From Anaerococcus sp. Marseille-Q5996 (GTDB taxonomy: Bacteria; Bacillota; Clostridia; Tissierellales; Peptoniphilaceae): 64,000 nucleotides of DNA. Numbering within the stretch: the stretch's first letter is position 1; the number at the start of each line of letters is the position of its first letter. The stretch spans positions 186,001 to 250,000 of the forward strand of contig NZ_CAMPPE010000002.1 in the NCBI RefSeq assembly GCF_946893725.1, in the 5' to 3' direction. The translations under genes and the position numbers were made by a program. Below the pieces are notes generated by a model, which was not told where the DNA came from, ran no database searches, and was given only the letters and a program-made list of their open reading frames with translations. Shown here piece after piece: positions 8,553 to 24,985 of the stretch.

Positions 8553-10190
8553 ATGGATACAAAATCATTTTTAAAAGGAAGATCAACTAATGCCTATACA
8601 TTTTTTGGCAACCATAAGAAAAATCAAGGATATATCTTTAGAGTCTATGCGCCAAATGCAAGTAAGGTTGAAATTATTGGAGACTTTAATGATTGGCAGG
8701 GACAAAATTTAAGAAGATATAGTAGCGGAGTGTTTTCGACAACTATTAAAAATGCAAAAGAAAATGATAGGTATCAGCATAAAATTTATAATCAATACGG
8801 CACAGAAATCATAAAGATAGATCCATTTGCAAGAAAGATTTCACTTGATGAAAATTGTGCTCTTGTTGGCGATAGCGAATATATATTTAAAAATAAAAAA
8901 GTAAAAACAAAAGTTAAAAACATCTACCAAGTTCACTTAGGGTCACTTTTTAAGGATGAGGAATTTTCTTTTGATAAATTAATCAATCATTGTAAATCAA
9001 ATAACTTTGACTGGATTTCTTTCTTACCCTTAGCAGAATACGAAAACTATAAGTCTTATGGATATAAAAACTTGAGTCTTTTTGCTTTTTCTCAAAGATA
9101 CGGACAAGCAGATAAATTTAAAGAGTTTATAGACCTGGCCCATAAAAATAATATTGGTGTAATAGCAGAATTAGATATTTATGAGTTTGACAATAATAAA
9201 TTTAGTTTAGACAACTTTGATGGGTCAAATATTTTCGGATATGATTATGAGGATATAAAGTACAATTATTATGGTGGAGTAAATTTTGACCCAAGCAAAA
9301 ATATAAGTAAATCTTATCTTTTATCTGTAATAAATTATTGGTTAAATGAATTTAATCTTGATGGAATTATGCTAGCTAATATTGAAAATGCAATTTATTG
9401 GCAGGGAGATAAAAATAGGGGACTTAATGAGAATTGGATTTTACTACTAAAAGATATTATAGACTTGATTCATAAAAATGATGCTTATGTTCTAGCTAGT
9501 TTTAATGGGGTTTATGATTTAGATGTAAATTTTGATTATATATATGACTTAAGTTTTAGAGAAATAATAAGAATAATGCAGAAAGCACCGTTTGATAGGG
9601 ATAATTATAAAAATATAGTGCAAAAATTAATAATGGCTGATAATAGTAATAAAATACTGGGTTTTACATATGTAGATTCTTACCTTGATGAGGCTAGCCT
9701 TGCTATGAAAATGTATGGAGAAGATAAAATCAGTCAATTAAAAAGTCTTTTTACACTTTTATATAGCTTAAATTCTTCTAAAATGCTATTTATGGGGGAT
9801 GAGCTTGCAGATTTTGAAATTTTTTCAGTATTTAAGCCTAAGAATATAAATTCGGATAATAAGCAGAATCAGGCCTTTAATAAGTTCTATAATGATTTGG
9901 TAGATTTTTATAACAATGAATTAAATTTAAATCTATCAAATACCAAGATCTTAGATATTGGCGGATATAGTATTTTCTCCTTTATTAGGGAATTTGAGAA
10001 CAAGAAATACTTAGTCATTATAAATCTTACTGATATAGAATACAAAATTCAAAGTCCATTTGATTTAGAAGAAACCATTAATTCAGAAAATCTTGATTAT
10101 GGAGGAAATGGCAATATAAATGGGACAACAATTAAGGGTGATTTTATAAATATAATGCCATTTGCTTCGGCAATTTTTAAAATAAAATAG
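8553..10190 (+). CDS. Catalytically degenerate 1,4-alpha-glucan branching enzyme homologue (GlgB-like pseudoenzyme)
   Basis: 545 aa. Residues about 20-95 are a CBM48/E-set domain (FRVYAPNASKVEIIGDFNDW), followed by a GH13_9-like barrel aligning along its length with GlgB and a C-terminal beta domain. The active site is broken. Where GlgB has DGLRVDAV, this has DGIMLANI (270-277), so the nucleophile Asp is Ala275 and its Arg partner is Met273. Where GlgB has the acid/base AEES, this has ASFN, so Glu is Ser316. The region I His of DWVPxHF is Glu. The third Asp (D375) is kept. About 80 residues shorter than typical GlgB. The frame is intact and GAGG precedes the ATG, so it is probably expressed. 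Likely binds glucan without branching it. A true GlgB would have to lie elsewhere. Confidence 0.8.
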   Translation: MDTKSFLKGRSTNAYTFFGNHKKNQGYIFRVYAPNASKVEIIGDFNDWQGQNLRRYSSGVFSTTIKNAKENDRYQHKIYNQYGTEIIKIDPFARKISLDENCALVGDSEYIFKNKKVKTKVKNIYQVHLGSLFKDEEFSFDKLINHCKSNNFDWISFLPLAEYENYKSYGYKNLSLFAFSQRYGQADKFKEFIDLAHKNNIGVIAELDIYEFDNNKFSLDNFDGSNIFGYDYEDIKYNYYGGVNFDPSKNISKSYLLSVINYWLNEFNLDGIMLANIENAIYWQGDKNRGLNENWILLLKDIIDLIHKNDAYVLASFNGVYDLDVNFDYIYDLSFREIIRIMQKAPFDRDNYKNIVQKLIMADNSNKILGFTYVDSYLDEASLAMKMYGEDKISQLKSLFTLLYSLNSSKMLFMGDELADFEIFSVFKPKNINSDNKQNQAFNKFYNDLVDFYNNELNLNLSNTKILDIGGYSIFSFIREFENKKYLVIINLTDIEYKIQSPFDLEETINSENLDYGGNGNINGTTIKGDFINIMPFASAIFKIK

Positions 10191-15434: not shown

Positions 15435-16568
15435 ATGAGAAATTCGAACAAAACAGCAGCAATGCTTTTAGCTGGTGGACAAGGATCTAGACTAAAAGCA
15501 TTAACAAAAGATATGGCAAAACCAGTTGTTCCTTTTGGCGGAAAATACAGAATCATAGATTTTGCATTAAGTAATTCAACTAATTCAGAAATTAAAGATA
15601 TTGGTGTCTTAACTCAATATAAACCACAACTATTAAATCGCCACTTGGGTATAGGTGCGGCTTGGGATTATGATAGAAATAATGGAGGTCTTAGAATACT
15701 TTCTCCTTACTATACAGAAGAAGGTGGAAAATGGTTTGAAGGTACTGCTAGTGCCATTTATGAAAATATAAACTACCTAGACTTAGTAAATCCAGAATAC
15801 GTCTTAATATTATCTGGTGATCATATTTACAAAATGGACTATAGAGAACTACTTGATATACATAAGGCAAAGGGTGCTGATGCTACAATTGCAGTTATGG
15901 AAGTTGATTGGGATGAAGCAAGTAGATTTGGAATTATGAATACTGATGAAGATGGTAGAATAACTGAATTTGAAGAAAAACCAGATAATCCAAAATCAAA
16001 TCTTGCATCAATGGGAATTTACGTATTTAACTGGAAAGTTTTAAGAAAAACTCTTATAGAAGATAACGAAAATCCAGATTCTTCCAATGACTTTGGTAAG
16101 GACATAATCCCTAAAATGCTTGCTGAGGGTGAACCACTTTATGTCTATAAATTTGATGGATATTGGAAGGATGTTGGTACAGTAAGAAGCTATTGGCAAG
16201 CAAACCTAGATCTAATAGATCCAAATAATGAATTAGGAATATATGATGAAGATTGGAAAATTTATACAACTAGCTTAAATTTACCACCACATAGAATTGG
16301 GCCAAATGGCAAACTCAATGATGCCTTGGTAAATGAAGCCTGTGTAATCGACGGGTCAGTTAATAACTCGGTTTTATTTTCAAACGTAAGTATTGAAGAA
16401 GGGGCAGAGGTTTATAATTCAGTCTTATTAAATGGTTCAAAAGTAAAAGCTGGATGTAAAATTTATAATTGTGTAGTAGCTGAAGATATAGAAATTACAG
16501 AAGATATAGGTGATGAAAATACTGATAAAGTATATCTAGTAAGTTCTGAAGGCATTGGGGAGGAATAA
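15435..16568 (+). CDS. glgC: Glucose-1-phosphate adenylyltransferase GlgC
   Basis: 377 aa. Makes ADP-glucose, the committed step of glycogen synthesis. Nucleotide motif [15 protein letters not shown] near residues 10-24, [15 protein letters not shown], the catalytic [12 protein letters not shown], and a C-terminal left-handed helix ([19 protein letters not shown]). GAAGGAGG lies 7 bp upstream of the ATG. First gene of the glycogen operon; the AT-rich upstream region shows no convincing -35/-10 pair. GlgD begins 1 bp after its stop. Confidence 0.95.
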
Positions 16569-16569
16569 T

Positions 16570-17694
16570 ATGGATAGTGTTTTAGCATTAGTATACAGCT
16601 CAGAATTTAATCCAGCGGCTTATGGTGAATTATGTAAGGTTAGGCCTGATTATATGCTACCATATGCTGGTAGATATAGGATTATAGACTTTACTTTATC
16701 AAATTTAACAAATTACGACATTAGCAATGTAATTTTATATGCAGGAAACAGGATGCGTTCTACCCTAGATCACATTGGCGATGGTAGAAGCTGGGAGCTT
16801 AATAGAAGACGAGGTGGACTTACAATTAATCCTCCTAATTTCGATGTTAAAAATGCTTCGGAAATAGAAAGATATTTTGATACCCTAAGGGCATTTGAAG
16901 AAAGTAATGCCGATTATATATTTGTTACAAATCCTATGTATATCAATAAAGTTGATATAGGAGATGCAAAAGAGCAACTTAAAAATCAAGGCAACGATGT
17001 TCTGATATTTACAAAAAAAACAGAAGATAAGGATGGTTTTTTCCTAAACCGTAAAATAATTAATTCAAACGAAGAAGGAAAGCCAGATAATGCAGGCTTA
17101 AATCTAGGCACAAGTGATGAATTTGATTTATTTGCTGGATCTATTCTAATTAAGCGTGAATTATTTATAAAAGTATTAAGATATGCTGAAGAAAAAAATT
17201 CTGTTTCTAATTTACTAAATGCAATTTTTGAATACCCTGAAAATTTAGACATAGACTTTTATAGGGTTAATAATCAACTAGAAATCGTAATGGATACCAA
17301 TTCATTTTTTGATTCCAATATTAAACTACTAGACAGAGAATATTTTGACAATTTATTTTACAACGACGGTTTGGTTTATACAAAATCAAAAGATGAGCCT
17401 TCCACTTCCTATACTAAAGAAAGTAAAGTAAAGAATTCATTGATAGCTAATGGCGCAATTATAGAAGGCGAGGTAGAAAATTCGATAATATTTAGGGGAG
17501 TTCAAGTAAAAAAAGGTGCTGTAATTAAAAACTCAATTATTTTCCAAGATAGTATTATTGGCGAAGACTCTATATTAAATTTTGTAATTACTGAGAAGGG
17601 CACCCATGTAGGAAAAAATGTGAAATTATTTGGAAATAGATCTCATCCTTTCGTATCAAGTAAAAATGAAGTTTTAGAAGATTGGAGTTACTAA
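16570..17694 (+). CDS. glgD: GlgD-type ADP-glucose pyrophosphorylase subunit
   Basis: 374 aa from the ATG at 16570, which has GGGGAGG upstream; an earlier in-frame TTG would put that site inside the gene. Same two-domain plan as GlgC (LPYAGRYRIIDFTLSNLTNY, C-terminal helix repeats), but the GGxGxRL nucleotide loop is replaced by VYSSEFNPAAYG, so it cannot act as the catalytic subunit. In Bacillus, GlgD is the partner that raises GlgC activity. The stop overlaps the glgA start by 1 bp. Confidence 0.92.
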   Translation: MDSVLALVYSSEFNPAAYGELCKVRPDYMLPYAGRYRIIDFTLSNLTNYDISNVILYAGNRMRSTLDHIGDGRSWELNRRRGGLTINPPNFDVKNASEIERYFDTLRAFEESNADYIFVTNPMYINKVDIGDAKEQLKNQGNDVLIFTKKTEDKDGFFLNRKIINSNEEGKPDNAGLNLGTSDEFDLFAGSILIKRELFIKVLRYAEEKNSVSNLLNAIFEYPENLDIDFYRVNNQLEIVMDTNSFFDSNIKLLDREYFDNLFYNDGLVYTKSKDEPSTSYTKESKVKNSLIANGAIIEGEVENSIIFRGVQVKKGAVIKNSIIFQDSIIGEDSILNFVITEKGTHVGKNVKLFGNRSHPFVSSKNEVLEDWSY

Positions 17695-19124
17695 TGAATG
17701 TTCTATTTCTGACAGCTGAAGCTGTACCTTTTGTAAAAACAGGGGGACTTGCAGATGTTGCAGGTTCCCTTCCAAAAGAACTTGTTAATCTTGGAGCAGA
17801 TGTCAGAGTTGTATTGCCACTTTATAGCACAATTGATGAATCATATAAATCAAAGATGGAAAAGATTACGGAATTTTATGTCGATCTTGATTGGAAACAC
17901 CAGTATGCTGGAGTATACGGTCTTGAATTTAATGGTGTGAAATATTATTTTATTGATAACATGGAATATTTTGACCGTGACCATCCATATGGATTTGATG
18001 ATGATGCAGAAAGATTTATATTCTATTCTAAAGCTTGCACACTATTAGGTAAAGAAATTAATTTTAAACCAGATATTATCCACACAAACGACTGGCATAC
18101 AGCTATGGTAAATGTTTTAGTAAATGATTATAGGCGTGGAGATAGTTACTATGATGATATTAGAACCTTATTTACTATTCACAATTTAAAGTATCAAGGA
18201 GTATTTGACCCTGAGAATTTAAGATTAGCAGGGCTTGATGGTTCATATTTTAACGAAAATGATTTAAAATTTTATGATGCCATTAACTTTATGAAAGCTG
18301 GAATAATTCATGCGACAGCTGTAAATACAGTTTCAGAAAATTATGCTAGAGAGATTCATTATCCATTTTATGGAGAAGGCCTAGATGGTATTATCCGCCA
18401 ATATGACTACAAGCTTTCTGGTATTGTTAATGGTATTGATTATAAAGAATGGAATCCAAAAACTGATAAAATGATAGATCAAAACTTTGATGTAGATAGT
18501 ATTGATAAAAAAGTTTTAAATAAGCTTGCCCTTCAAGAAGCCTATGGATTACCAAAAAGGGAAGATGTTCCTATGATAGGACTTGTTTCTAGACTAAATG
18601 AAATGAAGGGTATGGATTTAATAAGATATATTTTGGATGAATTATTGCAAGAGGATATTCAATTTGTTTTACTTGGAACAGGTGATTATACTTATGAAGA
18701 AATGTTTAATTACTTTGCATGGAAATATCCAGAAAAAATGTCTAGTAGAATTTATTTTGGTGGAGCAGAAGCCCACAAAATATATGCAGCTAGTGATTTT
18801 TATCTTATGCCATCTATATCTGAACCATGTGGTATTAGCCAATTAATTGCTATGCGTTACGGTACATTACCAATAGTTCGTGAGGCTGGTGGACTAAAGG
18901 ATACTGTTATTCCTTATAACGAATATACTGTGGAAGGTACTGGATATTCATTTTCAAATATTAATGCCCATGAGCTTTTATTTACAATAAAAAATGCTAT
19001 AAACATCTATAATACTCAAAAAGAAAATCATAATAGATTAATAAAAAATGCAATGATCCAAGACATCGACTGGAAAATGTCAGCTACTAAATACTTAGAC
19101 TTATATGAGGATATAAAAGCTTAG
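17694..19124 (+). CDS. glgA: Glycogen synthase GlgA (GT5)
   Basis: 476 aa from the ATG at 17694 (MNVLFLTAEAVPF), the conserved family start; upstream in-frame TTG ignored. Uses ADP-glucose to extend alpha-1,4-glucan. The KxGGL motif (VKTGGLADVAGSLP) and the catalytic E-x7-E region (SEPCGISQLIAMRYG) are intact, with GIDYKEWNP and GGLKDTV as in active GT5 enzymes. TAATG overlap with glgD. Confidence 0.95.
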   Translation: MNVLFLTAEAVPFVKTGGLADVAGSLPKELVNLGADVRVVLPLYSTIDESYKSKMEKITEFYVDLDWKHQYAGVYGLEFNGVKYYFIDNMEYFDRDHPYGFDDDAERFIFYSKACTLLGKEINFKPDIIHTNDWHTAMVNVLVNDYRRGDSYYDDIRTLFTIHNLKYQGVFDPENLRLAGLDGSYFNENDLKFYDAINFMKAGIIHATAVNTVSENYAREIHYPFYGEGLDGIIRQYDYKLSGIVNGIDYKEWNPKTDKMIDQNFDVDSIDKKVLNKLALQEAYGLPKREDVPMIGLVSRLNEMKGMDLIRYILDELLQEDIQFVLLGTGDYTYEEMFNYFAWKYPEKMSSRIYFGGAEAHKIYAASDFYLMPSISEPCGISQLIAMRYGTLPIVREAGGLKDTVIPYNEYTVEGTGYSFSNINAHELLFTIKNAINIYNTQKENHNRLIKNAMIQDIDWKMSATKYLDLYEDIKA

Positions 19125-19125
19125 G

Positions 19126-21384
19126 ATGATTACAAATAAAGAAATAATTATAGAAAGAATACAAAATTATTTGTATTCTTTTTATGCTAAAGACATAAAA
19201 ACGGCTAGGGAAAATGAGATTTATGATTGTCTTTGTAGATACCTTATGGAGATAGTTGGCAAAAAATGGGTTGATACAAAGAAAATAAAAGAAGGTTATG
19301 AAGTTTACATTTTAAGCTTTGAATACCTACCTGGTAGATTTTTAGGAAATGTAATATATAAATTAGATTTAGAATCTGAAATTAGATCAGCTCTCGATGA
19401 AATGGGATTTTCTTATGAAAATATTTTGAAACATGATCCAGAACCAGATCTAGGAATTGCAGATATGGGCATAGGCTCATCTTATTTGATAAATGAACTT
19501 TCAAACAAAAAAATAAAAGCAACTGCTTATGCCTTACGTTATGAATCTGGCAACTTCAAGCAAGTGATAAAAGATGGAATGCAAAGGGCAGAAACATCAT
19601 CATGGCTTAAAAATGGATCTAATTGGGAACATAGAAAATCTTTCACAAATGAAATAGAAATCTATGGAAAAAAGCATAAAACTATAACCTATGATATGCC
19701 AGTAATCTCTGATGATGCAAGTTTTATAAATACCCTTAGATTATTTAAGTCAGAACCAAGTAAAAGTATTAGTTTAAGCAAATTTTCAAAAGGTGATATT
19801 ATAGATGCATATGATGATTACATCAATAATAGCGCAATTACAGAATTTTTATATGTAGATGATTCTTCTTATGAAGGTAAGATTTTAAGGCTTAAACAAG
19901 AATATTTTTTCTCAGCATCTGCTATGAGAGATTTCATTCGTCGATATATCTTATATTATAAAGACATAAAAAATATTAATAAGCAAACAAATGTAATTAT
20001 AAATGATATTCATCCAACCCTTGCCCTTATAGAATTTATAAGAATATTAAAATCTGACTATAATTTTTCTACAAAACTAGCTATTCAATACACTAGAGAT
20101 ATTTTTTATCATTTGGTATTTTCAATAACTGATGATTCTTTGGAACGTTATCCAGTTGATGAAATTAGGAAAATGAATCCTGATATATTAACAACCATAA
20201 CTGATGTTCAAAACGAGTTAATAGCTGAAGAAAATTTCAATCCATTTATTAAAGATGGCTTTGTGATCTTTAGAAATATAAATATAGCCCTAAGTAAGGA
20301 TTACTTTTTTTTATCAAAATCATTATCTGATAATAGAAAAAGTAATAGGAGTTACTCCTATGTTAATCTTGGTACAGACAGGCTAATGTATGCTAAAAGT
20401 GCTAATTCTAATCTGACTGAGTATTTGAAAAACTATGATATAGATATTACAAAAACTGATGATTTTAATAAATTCAAATTATTTGTTAAGGATAAGGATT
20501 TTTTAGATGGACTTGAGAAAATTAAATTTAAGAATAAAAAATCATTTGTAGAATCATTAAATGATAAAGAAAAAAATATAAATCCTTACTCAATATTTGA
20601 TATGCAATTATCTATTATGCATGAAAGCAAAAGACAGATATTAAATGCAATGGCTATCGCTTATGAATTTTACTTTTTAAGAGATAACAGAAATGCATAT
20701 GCAATTCCAAAAACTTATATATTTTCCGGGAAGGCCAATGAAGGCTATTTTATGGCAAAAGAAACTATTAAATTTATAATTGCTTTAAAAAATCTATTAG
20801 AATCTGATAAGGTAATTAGAGAAAAATTAAAAATAGTATATGTAGAAAATTTATCAGTTGGAGATTTAAGAAAATTATATCCAGCTTGTGATGTCTACTC
20901 CAATTTGACTTATCCACTTTACGATAACCAAAATTTTGATATTTTAAATTCTATATTCAATATGTCAAATATAATATCAACTAGAGGAGGCATTGTGGAT
21001 AATATAGAAAAAGATAATGAATTTTATCTCTTAGATGATAGCTACAAAACTTATGAAAAGAGACGAGAAAATAAATCTCATAAATTAGACGATGTTATTA
21101 GTCAGAATAGAAAAGTTAAATATACTATAGAAAATTTACTAAAAGAATCTCGAGAAAACTTTCCTTATGATTTCAAAAGCTTATATGAAGAAATAATTTT
21201 GTATAATGATTCTTTTGAAATATTTTTAGACTTGGAAAATTTAGTCAATATTAGAAGGAAAGTATCCAATGATTATCTTCATCAAGAAATTTGGACTCAA
21301 AAACAGATTGAAAATATTTTATGGGCCAATGAATTTAATTTAAATCACATAAAAAAGGATATGAGTTTTGATAAAAAATTATAG
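19126..21384 (+). CDS. Glycogen phosphorylase homologue lacking the PLP lysine (GlgP-like pseudoenzyme)
   Basis: 752 aa, GT35 fold along the whole length: VYILSFEYLPGRFLGN, ALRYESGNFKQ, RLKQEYFF, DIHPTLALIEFIRIL, HESKRQILNAMAIAYEF, SGKANEGYFMAKETIKF, LKIVYVENL and a W-rich end all match phosphorylase blocks. Catalytic positions are lost. In the block that is EASGTGNMKF in enzymes, an ungapped alignment places Asn608 at the PLP-Schiff-base lysine. GNGGLGRLA is replaced by ADMGIGSSY, YTNHT by FYHLVF, and the KR pair before HEYK by SI. It starts 1 bp after glgA and overlaps pulA by 17 bp, so it is translated with the operon. It cannot degrade glycogen by the known mechanism. Scaffold or regulatory role is inferred. 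Confidence 0.82.
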   Translation: MITNKEIIIERIQNYLYSFYAKDIKTARENEIYDCLCRYLMEIVGKKWVDTKKIKEGYEVYILSFEYLPGRFLGNVIYKLDLESEIRSALDEMGFSYENILKHDPEPDLGIADMGIGSSYLINELSNKKIKATAYALRYESGNFKQVIKDGMQRAETSSWLKNGSNWEHRKSFTNEIEIYGKKHKTITYDMPVISDDASFINTLRLFKSEPSKSISLSKFSKGDIIDAYDDYINNSAITEFLYVDDSSYEGKILRLKQEYFFSASAMRDFIRRYILYYKDIKNINKQTNVIINDIHPTLALIEFIRILKSDYNFSTKLAIQYTRDIFYHLVFSITDDSLERYPVDEIRKMNPDILTTITDVQNELIAEENFNPFIKDGFVIFRNINIALSKDYFFLSKSLSDNRKSNRSYSYVNLGTDRLMYAKSANSNLTEYLKNYDIDITKTDDFNKFKLFVKDKDFLDGLEKIKFKNKKSFVESLNDKEKNINPYSIFDMQLSIMHESKRQILNAMAIAYEFYFLRDNRNAYAIPKTYIFSGKANEGYFMAKETIKFIIALKNLLESDKVIREKLKIVYVENLSVGDLRKLYPACDVYSNLTYPLYDNQNFDILNSIFNMSNIISTRGGIVDNIEKDNEFYLLDDSYKTYEKRRENKSHKLDDVISQNRKVKYTIENLLKESRENFPYDFKSLYEEIILYNDSFEIFLDLENLVNIRRKVSNDYLHQEIWTQKQIENILWANEFNLNHIKKDMSFDKKL

Positions 21385-23248
21385 AAAACTTACCTATGAA
21401 GAAATAAAAGACTATGAATTAGGAGCCATTTACTCTAAAGAAAAAACTATCTTTAGAGTCTTTGCTCCGGAAAAAAGTGTAAAGCTTACATTAACTACTG
21501 ATTATAATAATCCCCGAAAAGATATTTTTCCTATGAAGCAAAATGAATTGGGAGTTTGGGAGATAGAAGTTAGTGGAGATTTGGATGGATATTATTATTC
21601 TTATATTGTAGATGATAAATTTGAAGTAACTGATCCTTATTCATTTACAAGTTCTATAAACTCAATGTATTCAGTGGTTTGCGATATGGGAGAAACTGAT
21701 CCTAAGGGGTTTAGAAAAAGTATAGTGCCACAAATACCCGAAGAAGAAGCAATTATTTATGAAATGTCAGTTAAAAACTACACAGCCGATAAAAGCAGCG
21801 GAGTTATAAACAGAGGAAAATTCTTAGGACTTAGCGAAAAAAATACTAGTTACCATGGATTTAAAACAGGTCTTTCACATTTGAAAGAACTTGGCATAAC
21901 ACATTTGCAATTATTACCAATCTATGACTTTATAAGTGTAGATGAATCTAGCGATAGATTTTTTGATGATGATAATTACAATTGGGGTTATGATCCTGAA
22001 CTTTACTTTGCTCCTGAAGGATCATATTCAACTGACCCACAAGATTCAAAATCAAGGGTCTATGAGCTCAAAAAGATGATTCAAGCTATACATGAAGCAA
22101 ATATTGCTGTAATCATGGATGTAGTTTACAACCATACTTTTAAGTCATATGATTCCAATTTAAATACTTTGGGGCCAAATTATTATTACAGAATGAATAA
22201 TGATGGAACATTTTCAAATGGATCTGGTGTTGGAAATGAAATTGCAAGTGAAAGACCCTTTGTTAGAAAGCTAATAATAGACTCCTTAAAACATTGGGTC
22301 AAGGAGTATAAGATTGATGGATTTCGCTTTGATTTGATGGCCTTAATTGACATAGACACTATAAAAATTGCATTAGAGGAATTAAAGGAAATAAATCCAA
22401 ATTTAATCATCTATGGAGAGCCATGGATGGCCCTTGGTACAACATTGCCTTATGAAAAGCAAATTGTGAAGGGATCCCAAAAATCAAATGATTTTGGAGT
22501 TTTTAATGATATATATAGGGATGCTATAAAGGGTGATACGAATTCATTTGGCATAGGCTATATTCAAGGTAATCACTTTCTTAAACCGACTATAGAAGAG
22601 GCAATTGCTGGATCAATACATTTTGATAAAAAAAGATGGGGATTTACTGACTTTGCATCTGAAACAGTAAACTATTTTAATTGCCATGACAATTTAATTT
22701 TATATGATAAATTACAAATTTCATTGAATAATTTAGACAATATAAATGATTATGTAAAGCTTGCTATTGGACTAATTATGCTATCCTTTGGTAAACCGTT
22801 TTTATATGAAGGAAATGAATTTAACCATAGCAAAAATAATGACAGAAATTCCTACAATTCACCCTTGTTTATAAATGCTATTAATTGGAATGATAAGCAG
22901 GAAAACATAGACGTATTTAATTATACAAAAGACATAATTGCTCTTAGAAAAAATATAAAAGTATTTAATAAAATAGACCCTAATCATATTAGAAAATCTT
23001 TAAGTTTTATGGATAATTTAGAAAATTCTCTTATAATTTATAAAATAAAAGCTAAAAAAGGATTTATTTTGGTTGCTATTAATGCAGGACTTGAAGAAAA
23101 GTTTATTAGTACTAAAAGATTAAATTCTTTTATAGGATATAATGATTTTATAATAGAGAAAATTTTTGATAAAGAGGGTAAATATAATAATATAGAAGAG
23201 GATATAAGCCTCGATAAGTTATCAGTAAATGTATATAAAATATATTAG
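21368..23248 (+). CDS. pulA: Type I pullulanase (GH13_14 debranching enzyme)
   Basis: 626 aa from a TTG start at 21368, with AAAGGA 8 bp upstream; no in-frame ATG gives a full domain. N-terminal CBM48 (FRVFAPEKSVKLTL), then the barrel: VMDVVYNHTF (region I), GFRFDLMALIDID with nucleophile Asp (region II), IIYGEPW with the acid/base Glu (region III) and FNCHDNLILYDKL (region IV). YNWGYDPELYFAPEGSYS is the type I signature. No signal peptide, so it removes alpha-1,6 branches of internal glycogen. The start lies inside the GlgP-like gene. Confidence 0.92.
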   Translation: MIKNYRKLTYEEIKDYELGAIYSKEKTIFRVFAPEKSVKLTLTTDYNNPRKDIFPMKQNELGVWEIEVSGDLDGYYYSYIVDDKFEVTDPYSFTSSINSMYSVVCDMGETDPKGFRKSIVPQIPEEEAIIYEMSVKNYTADKSSGVINRGKFLGLSEKNTSYHGFKTGLSHLKELGITHLQLLPIYDFISVDESSDRFFDDDNYNWGYDPELYFAPEGSYSTDPQDSKSRVYELKKMIQAIHEANIAVIMDVVYNHTFKSYDSNLNTLGPNYYYRMNNDGTFSNGSGVGNEIASERPFVRKLIIDSLKHWVKEYKIDGFRFDLMALIDIDTIKIALEELKEINPNLIIYGEPWMALGTTLPYEKQIVKGSQKSNDFGVFNDIYRDAIKGDTNSFGIGYIQGNHFLKPTIEEAIAGSIHFDKKRWGFTDFASETVNYFNCHDNLILYDKLQISLNNLDNINDYVKLAIGLIMLSFGKPFLYEGNEFNHSKNNDRNSYNSPLFINAINWNDKQENIDVFNYTKDIIALRKNIKVFNKIDPNHIRKSLSFMDNLENSLIIYKIKAKKGFILVAINAGLEEKFISTKRLNSFIGYNDFIIEKIFDKEGKYNNIEEDISLDKLSVNVYKIY

Positions 23249-23257
23249 GAGAAAAAA

Positions 23258-24952
23258 ATGGATTATATAAAAAATTATGAATCTTGGTTAAATAATGAAA
23301 AATTTGATGATTTGACCCGTAAAGAATTAGAAGAAATTAGAGGAAATGATGAAGAAATAAAAGATAGGTTTTATAATTCACTGGAATTTGGAACAGCAGG
23401 TCTTCGTGGAAAACTAGGTGCTGGAACAAACCGTATGAATGAGTATATGGTAGCTCAGGCTAGCCAAGGATTTGCTGATACAATTGCTGAAATGGGAGAA
23501 GATGCAAAAAAAGCTGGTGTTGCTATTTCCTATGATGTACGTCACAAGTCAGAAGAATTTGCAAAAATAACTGCAGAAGTGTTTGCAGCTAATGGCATAA
23601 AAGTTTATATCCATAAAGAAATACAACCTACACCTGTTTTATCTTATACAGTCAGACAATTAAAAACATCAGCAGGAGTAATGATAACAGCTAGCCACAA
23701 TCCTATGGAATATAATGGATATAAGGCTTATAATGCAGAAGGAAGCCAAATTCTAGATGAAACTGCTAATAAAATTTTAGGCCATATTGCCGAACACCCT
23801 GATTTTTTTGAAATTCCACGTTTAGATTTTGAAAAAGGTATTGATGATGGAATTATTGAATGGGTAGATCAAAGTGTGGTTGAAGATTATGTAAAAAAAG
23901 TCTTAGATTGTACTATAAATGAAGATATTGACAAAGATATAAATATTGTATATACACCTCTTAATGGAACTGGAAATAAACTAGTTAGAAGAATCCTTGA
24001 TGAAAGAGGATTCAAAAATATCCACATTGTTCCAGAACAAGAAAACCCAGACCCAAACTTTACTACTGTGGGTTATCCAAACCCAGAAATGCCAGCAGCC
24101 TTTGAATATTCAGAAAAATTAGGAAAAGAGGTTGGAGCAGACTTACTACTTGCAACCGATCCTGATGCTGATAGATGTGCAGTAGAAATAAATGATGGAA
24201 ATGGAAATTTTGTATTTTTAACTGGAAATAAAATTGGTGCCCTACTTACAAACTACATTTTAGAAGCTCTTGATAAAAATGGAGAACTTCCTGAAAATGG
24301 AGCAGTTGTTAAGTCGATTGTAACTGGTGATTTGATAGCTCCGGTTACTAAAAAGTATGGTGTCAAAAAATATGATGTACTAACTGGATTTAAAAACATC
24401 TATGCCGTAGCAAATGAACTTGAGAAAAATAACGACGGAAAATTTATCTTTGGTTTTGAAGAATCAATTGGTTACAATTATAAAGACTTTGTTAGAGATA
24501 AAGATGCTGTAAACTCTGCAATGATGATTGCAGAAATGGCGGCATATTATAAAAAACAAGGAAAATCATTACTAGATGTACTAGATGATATGTATAAAGA
24601 ACACGGATACTACTCAAACGATGTTATCTCTATTACCCTACAAGGGCTCGATGGAAAAGCTCGCATAGGTAGAATCATGGAAGAATTTAGAAACAATCCT
24701 ATAGAATCTCTAGCGGATTTAAAAACTAGAAAAATTATAGATTATAAATTAGATGAAACAGGTCTTCCAAAATCAAATGTACTTAAATACTACTTTGAAG
24801 ATGAATCTTGGGTAGCTATTAGACCATCGGGTACAGAACCAAAAATAAAACTATATATCAACGCAGTTTCTAAGGATAATGAAAAAGCAGCAAACGATAA
24901 AAAAGAACAATTAGAAGATCAAATGCAAAAAATAATTGACAGTGTAGAATAA
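23258..24952 (+). CDS. pgcA: Alpha-phosphoglucomutase / phosphomannomutase
   Basis: 564 aa of the alpha-D-phosphohexomutase family: GTAGLRGKLG, catalytic serine loop TASHNPMEYNGYK, metal loop LLATDPDADRCAVE, sugar loop GFEESIGYN, phosphate loop IRPSGTEPKIKLY. Interconverts glucose-6-P and glucose-1-P, so it supplies GlgC and uses the products of glycogen breakdown. TAGGAG precedes the ATG by 7 bp; a terminator follows at once, ending the operon. Confidence 0.93.
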   Translation: MDYIKNYESWLNNEKFDDLTRKELEEIRGNDEEIKDRFYNSLEFGTAGLRGKLGAGTNRMNEYMVAQASQGFADTIAEMGEDAKKAGVAISYDVRHKSEEFAKITAEVFAANGIKVYIHKEIQPTPVLSYTVRQLKTSAGVMITASHNPMEYNGYKAYNAEGSQILDETANKILGHIAEHPDFFEIPRLDFEKGIDDGIIEWVDQSVVEDYVKKVLDCTINEDIDKDINIVYTPLNGTGNKLVRRILDERGFKNIHIVPEQENPDPNFTTVGYPNPEMPAAFEYSEKLGKEVGADLLLATDPDADRCAVEINDGNGNFVFLTGNKIGALLTNYILEALDKNGELPENGAVVKSIVTGDLIAPVTKKYGVKKYDVLTGFKNIYAVANELEKNNDGKFIFGFEESIGYNYKDFVRDKDAVNSAMMIAEMAAYYKKQGKSLLDVLDDMYKEHGYYSNDVISITLQGLDGKARIGRIMEEFRNNPIESLADLKTRKIIDYKLDETGLPKSNVLKYYFEDESWVAIRPSGTEPKIKLYINAVSKDNEKAANDKKEQLEDQMQKIIDSVE

Positions 24953-24956
24953 ATTA

Positions 24957-24985
24957 AAGCTAGGGTATTAGCCCTAGTTTTTTTG
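24957..24985 (+). terminator. Terminator of the glycogen operon
   Basis: CTAGGG (24960-24965), 6-nt loop, CCCTAG (24972-24977), flanked by A on one side and seven T on the other. Confidence 0.85.

Follow-up and report, generated by a model that had tools for sequence, protein, structure and literature searches.

Gene content of the glycogen locus

The window, which is the whole stretch of 64,000 nucleotides analyzed here from Anaerococcus sp. Marseille-Q5996, contains a glycogen operon with the gene order glgC-glgD-glgA-[glgP-like]-pulA-pgm, and its fourth gene is the subject of this study. This glgP-like pseudophosphorylase gene (19126..21384, on the + strand like all features given below) encodes a protein of 752 amino acids that has the fold of the GT35 phosphorylases and lacks the lysine that carries pyridoxal phosphate (PLP). 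It is preceded by glgC for ADP-glucose pyrophosphorylase (15435..16568; NF003670 and TIGR02091 over cut-off), by glgD (16555..17694; TIGR02092 over cut-off), whose family comprises inactive modulatory paralogues of GlgC according to PMC9093745, and by glgA for glycogen synthase (17682..19124), the stop codon of which is separated from the glgP-like ATG by a single base. The type I pullulanase gene pulA (21368..23248) follows with an apparent 17-nucleotide overlap, given its listed putative TTG start, and then pgm for phosphoglucomutase (23258..24952) and a terminator-like hairpin (24956..24981; consensus match only). Terminator-like sites numbered 12 in the window versus 3.6 in shuffled sequences, and promoter-like sites were uninformative (70 versus 67.3). 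The glgP-like gene is probably co-transcribed with the genes of the ADP-glucose glycogen pathway. The operon is not "otherwise intact", as an earlier sequence-only reading of this DNA had it, since glgB lies outside the glgC-pgm operon and a putatively dead glgB-like paralogue is found upstream.

A phosphorylase homologue with a replaced active site

The glgP-like protein scores 338 bits against the Pfam phosphorylase profile PF00343 (cut-off 27), which places it in the GT35 fold family, and its predicted structure is a two-domain GT-B phosphorylase fold across the full length, in agreement with the retained fold that the sequence-only reading had proposed. On the profile of catalytic alpha-glucan phosphorylases (TIGR02093, EC 2.4.1.1), however, it reaches 355.4 bits and stays below the cut-off of 552.9, whereas the canonical copy of the same genome scores 1075 bits. 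The frame is open throughout its 752 codons with neither stop nor frameshift, as had been stated.

When the protein is aligned by MAFFT with E. coli GlgP and MalP and 18 canonical family copies, Asn608, the residue named earlier as replacing the lysine, falls in the PLP-lysine column; the assignment is anchored by the conserved N612 and G622, and residues 599-612 contain no lysine at all. The PLP-bearing lysine of E. coli MalP is K646 according to PMC11046441. Compared with GT35 phosphorylases such as E. coli GlgP and MalP and the C. callunae enzyme (2c4m), the catalytic loops are lost together with the lysine. In the Gly-rich loop (19453..19479, codons 110-118), GIADMGIGS replaces GNGGLGRLA, so that the substitution reported earlier is real but its stated equivalent, ADMGIGSSY, was off by two residues. 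The NHT site (20116..20124, codons 331-333) reads VFS, again a loop already recognized as replaced. At the KR pair (20611..20634, codons 496-503), SIMHESKR stands for KRIHEYKR with K502 kept; the change from KR to SI (S496/I497) was correctly described, but the HEYK said to follow it is not present, as HESKR is found where canonical enzymes have HEYKR. In the SGTGN loop and PLP site (20923..20949, codons 600-608), DNQNFDILN replaces EASGT[GS]NMK, ending with Asn608.

Over 27 columns that we take to form the active site, with residue roles assigned accordingly and numbered as in the rabbit enzyme, the canonical consensus is matched at 7. By this numbering the K568/R569 columns hold S496/I497 and the K574 column retains K502, while D600 is at the E672 column, Tyr (Y422) at the W491 column, and Phe at both the H377 (F332) and T676 (F604) columns. 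To our knowledge, GT35 enzymes are regarded as PLP-dependent throughout, and the residues present point to a protein that is catalytically dead.

Conservation and selection within Anaerococcus

The operon copy was identified in all 31 Anaerococcus genomes, with 43-81% identity across the 30 relatives, and the PLP-lysine column (by sequence alignment) holds Asn in 29, Ala in one, His in one and Lys in none. As all 31 genomes carry the gene without the PLP lysine, chance can be excluded. The copy is directly adjoined by glgA in 31/31 genomes, as judged from coordinates, and is followed by pulA and then pgm, as in the window, in the 22 of the 30 genus relatives whose neighbourhoods were mapped.

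The ratio of nonsynonymous to synonymous substitution rates (dN/dS) of the operon copy is 0.054-0.138 in 11/11 genome pairs, compared with 0.050-0.157 for pulA and 0.024-0.063 for glgA in those pairs, some of these values being rough because dS exceeds 1 in several pairs. The glgP-like protein is a conserved member of the GT35 fold family and not a decaying copy, which upholds the sequence-only reading on this point. Moreover, the replacement residues are largely re-fixed in the genus (F332 in 29/30 rows, Y422, D600 and F604 in 30/30, N608 in 28/30), and K502 is, together with D600, invariant in all 30 rows. Conservation is higher at the 17 changed columns of the active site than at changed columns generally (0.61 versus 0.48, resampling P 0.03), and the pocket thus looks refitted within the genus rather than randomized. 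Random divergence of these sites among orthologues, which had been named as evidence against a maintained role, was not observed within the genus, but across genera the replaced active-site positions do diverge freely. The conservation of Asn608, which had been put forward as a point to check, largely holds within the genus; elsewhere lysine persists in some operon copies.

The canonical GlgP of the same genome

A second, canonical GlgP, which the sequence-only reading had advised looking for, is encoded beside malQ on another contig of the window genome (G000:C4:123326) with its motifs intact. The two proteins share 31-32% identity in matched pieces and fall in separate clades. In all 21 canonical copies examined in the genus (that of the window genome and 20 from relatives), GNGGLGRLA, EASGTGNMK and KRIHEYKR are unaltered. 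One genus assembly (G002, 84% complete with 4% contamination) has an extra canonical GlgP (L064, on G002:C21) by a malQ homologue, which groups with a Ruminococcus sequence in the tree and is possibly a product of transfer or contamination.

Distribution beyond the genus

Degenerate GT35 genes of the operon type beside glgA were identified in at least 59 genomes from 16 genera and two families. Within Peptoniphilaceae they occur in 52/130 genomes (14 genera), and a scan of 249 genomes of the order added at least seven genomes (two genera) of a second family, f18. Outside the genus, glgA and pulA are the neighbours in 28/28 operon copies. As exact strings, the Gly-rich and SGTGN motifs are absent from all 59 copies, and a lysine is still aligned at the PLP column in 12 of them, all outside the genus. 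For the copies that diverge most (G053, G054, G062 and f18) the alignment of this column is insecure.

Most copies (55/59) are in one piece and four are split (G028, G029, G068 and G095); in G029 a sequence error is possible because pulA is split there as well. The copy split in two in G095 (L054), from a genus whose sister clade lacks the gene, may have been caught in the act of loss. The copies of G053 and G054 (L052 and L053; 697-698 amino acids) are highly divergent and form a long branch.

Among the 81 family genomes with glgA, 29 have no operon copy, and in the 18 of these that were examined no GT35 gene occupies the corresponding slot (blastp, E 1e-3), glgA being followed directly by pulA in 14. 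A two-pattern peptide scan of genome contigs returned 57 loci, of which only L149-L177, from Anaerococcus and near genera, are degenerate; the Gly loop is intact in all the remaining 28 (L178-L205) and a strict SGT.N.K in 23. The scan returned nothing resembling the f18 copies, and so is no proof of absence elsewhere.

Evolutionary history of the operon copy

The sampled operon copies form one clade, with a Shimodaira-Hasegawa-like approximate likelihood ratio test (SH-aLRT) value of 100 in each of two quick trees and support of 100/99 in a careful tree of 28 rows, to be read with the reservation that long branches may draw degenerate copies together. Mapped on a tree of GlgA+GlgC from 45 genomes of the family, the presence of the operon copy takes three changes and fits one gain with two losses, the gene being missing from two lineages that are nested among carriers and keep glgA. 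With f18 included, the pattern requires either transfer or a gain further back in time followed by more losses. In a survey of the order (one to seven genomes a family), canonical glgP was found directly after glgA in genomes of f3, f8, f9 and f14, elsewhere in the glg cluster in f6 and f7, and adjoining malQ in f11, f13, f15, f16 and f18. It may be that the operon copy is the original enzyme of the glg operon, which lost catalysis once the malQ-linked GlgP did the work. As to its sister group, a grouping of the operon clade with operon-type canonical sequences has support of 34/6.7, and one with malQ-linked sequences was not rejected by the approximately unbiased test (p-AU 0.085). Judged from the aligned residues, loss of the lysine is not the root event, because the 12 copies noted above keep it though neither catalytic motif is intact in any copy.

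Possible roles of the glgP-like protein

A replaced active site, together with selection at a constant operon position, suggests that the role of the protein is now in regulating or organizing glycogen metabolism and not in glycogen breakdown. We consider it likely that it is a subunit without catalysis of its own, which modulates active enzymes of glycogen metabolism or positions them, a reading favoured by two precedents, GlgD with GlgC and the plant protein ISA2 with ISA1. According to PMC9093745, GlgD is inactive and modulates GlgC; like GlgD, the glgP-like protein is under selection, is encoded in this operon and is the degenerate paralogue of an enzyme active on glycogen, and an inactive paralogue, judged by residues only, does occur here alongside an active homologue in the same genome. 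It belongs, however, to another fold family than GlgD, and a partner and its modulation would follow by analogy. ISA2 is a noncatalytic paralogue that binds the isoamylase ISA1, as given in PMC12510319, and resembles the glgP-like protein in being conserved in glucan metabolism, but it derives from the GH13 debranching enzymes of plants and not from GT35.

The single likeliest partner is, tentatively, the canonical malQ-linked GlgP, with docking of GlgA and PulA on glucan being nearly as likely; both the partner and the direction of the effect are inferred. The dead subunit would pair with canonical GlgP in the way that GT35 enzymes form homodimers and, made alongside GlgA, could dampen or redirect phosphorolysis during glycogen build-up. 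Several observations weigh against a subunit role. The dN/dS of the operon copy is higher than that of glgA in every pair, and the copy evolves faster than canonical GlgP (mean column identity 0.55 versus 0.80, 21 genomes). Putative dimer-interface segments are unevenly conserved, residues 241-260 being high (0.84) and 221-240 average (0.57). The gene is dispensable, given its absence from the two nested lineages that retain glgA. Furthermore, a canonical-type copy is present in 57/59 carriers and was not seen in the other two (assemblies 86% and 91% complete), and this co-occurrence is uninformative, canonical GlgP being common also in genomes without the operon copy.

As one form of the subunit reading, it is possible, if somewhat doubtful, that no pairing with GlgP takes place and that the protein is a scaffold, whose retained N-domain surface would bind glucan and bring GlgA and PulA to the particle as it grows. 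The close junctions with glgA and pulA in the window and the constancy of these neighbours outside the genus are in its favour, but the equivalents of H377, N484 and Y573, which we take to contact glucan in the active enzyme, are replaced. The N-domain, to which the glucan substrate of GT35 mainly binds according to PMC11046441, keeps many canonical residues in the glgP-like protein, which also favours a scaffold.

A new enzymatic activity, in which the GT-B cleft vacated by PLP again takes a nucleotide sugar or other donor, appears improbable. The predicted GT-B fold is retained, several replaced pocket residues are re-fixed, and the invariant K502 and D600 lie at what we take to be two GT-B catalytic positions. 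Of the residues conserved in the GT-B cleft of retaining enzymes that use nucleoside diphosphate (NDP) sugars, however, Lys is kept, Glu has become Asp, and the Arg and His are absent from 30/30 rows, with I/M/L/N/V and F/I instead. The space of the pocket may be taken up by F332, F604 and Y422. Such a change would reverse the origin of GT35 from an NDP-sugar enzyme that is proposed in PMC11046441.

It is very improbable that the gene is a slowly decaying relic of an operon glgP that only chance or polar effects within the operon have preserved. The four split copies, one of them perhaps a sequence error, and the two lineages without the gene would fit, but the dN/dS values are similar to those of pulA and the unbroken copies span two families; decay as a general account was rejected on this selection and breadth of spread. 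Finally, a phosphorylase that still holds PLP without the Schiff-base lysine is scarcely credible. The 12 operon copies outside the genus with lysine at the PLP column would speak for it, but in the genus the equivalents of K568, R569, H377, Y573, T676 and the lysine and the Gly loop are all altered.

A search of the open-access literature, with subscription journals outside its scope, found no dead GT35 protein. Dead paralogues are already known in glucan metabolism, and GT35 is a new enzyme family for them, in which the evolutionary series is unusually clear. The glycogen operons of 16 genera in two families have retained a degenerate branch, and its intermediates with altered catalytic loops and a PLP-column lysine provide a graded natural series from enzyme to pseudoenzyme. 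A glgP label in such operons need not mean a phosphorylase, and if the subunit reading is true, dead paralogues partly govern bacterial glycogen, as they do plant starch.

A GlgB homologue without the catalytic triad

About 5 kb upstream of glgC, a GlgB homologue of 545 amino acids (8553..10190) lacks what we take to be the GH13 catalytic triad and gave no match to the Pfam amylase domain at E 0.001. It is present in 31/31 genus genomes, split in two in G002, and in G069; none of the catalytic Asp, Glu and Asp is found at its respective column in any of the 30 homologues aligned out of these 32 (all but G002 and G004). Inactive GlgB-type domains have been reported in Chlamydiae in a glgA-glgB fusion (PMC11046441), which shares the inactive GH13 branching domain, but the Anaerococcus homologue is a free protein. 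It is conceivable, though unlikely, that Anaerococcus has a second, non-catalytic glycogen set, composed of dead GlgB, GlgD and dead GlgP with the active counterparts kept, and that this set forms an architectural or regulatory complex shaping the glycogen particle, as a bacterial parallel to the noncatalytic ISA assemblies of starch. Elsewhere the window genome encodes a GlgB that passes the curated cut-off, and a third GlgB-like GH13 protein of 666 amino acids (L097, G000:C5:2748-3869) retains the Glu and HD of the catalytic motifs.
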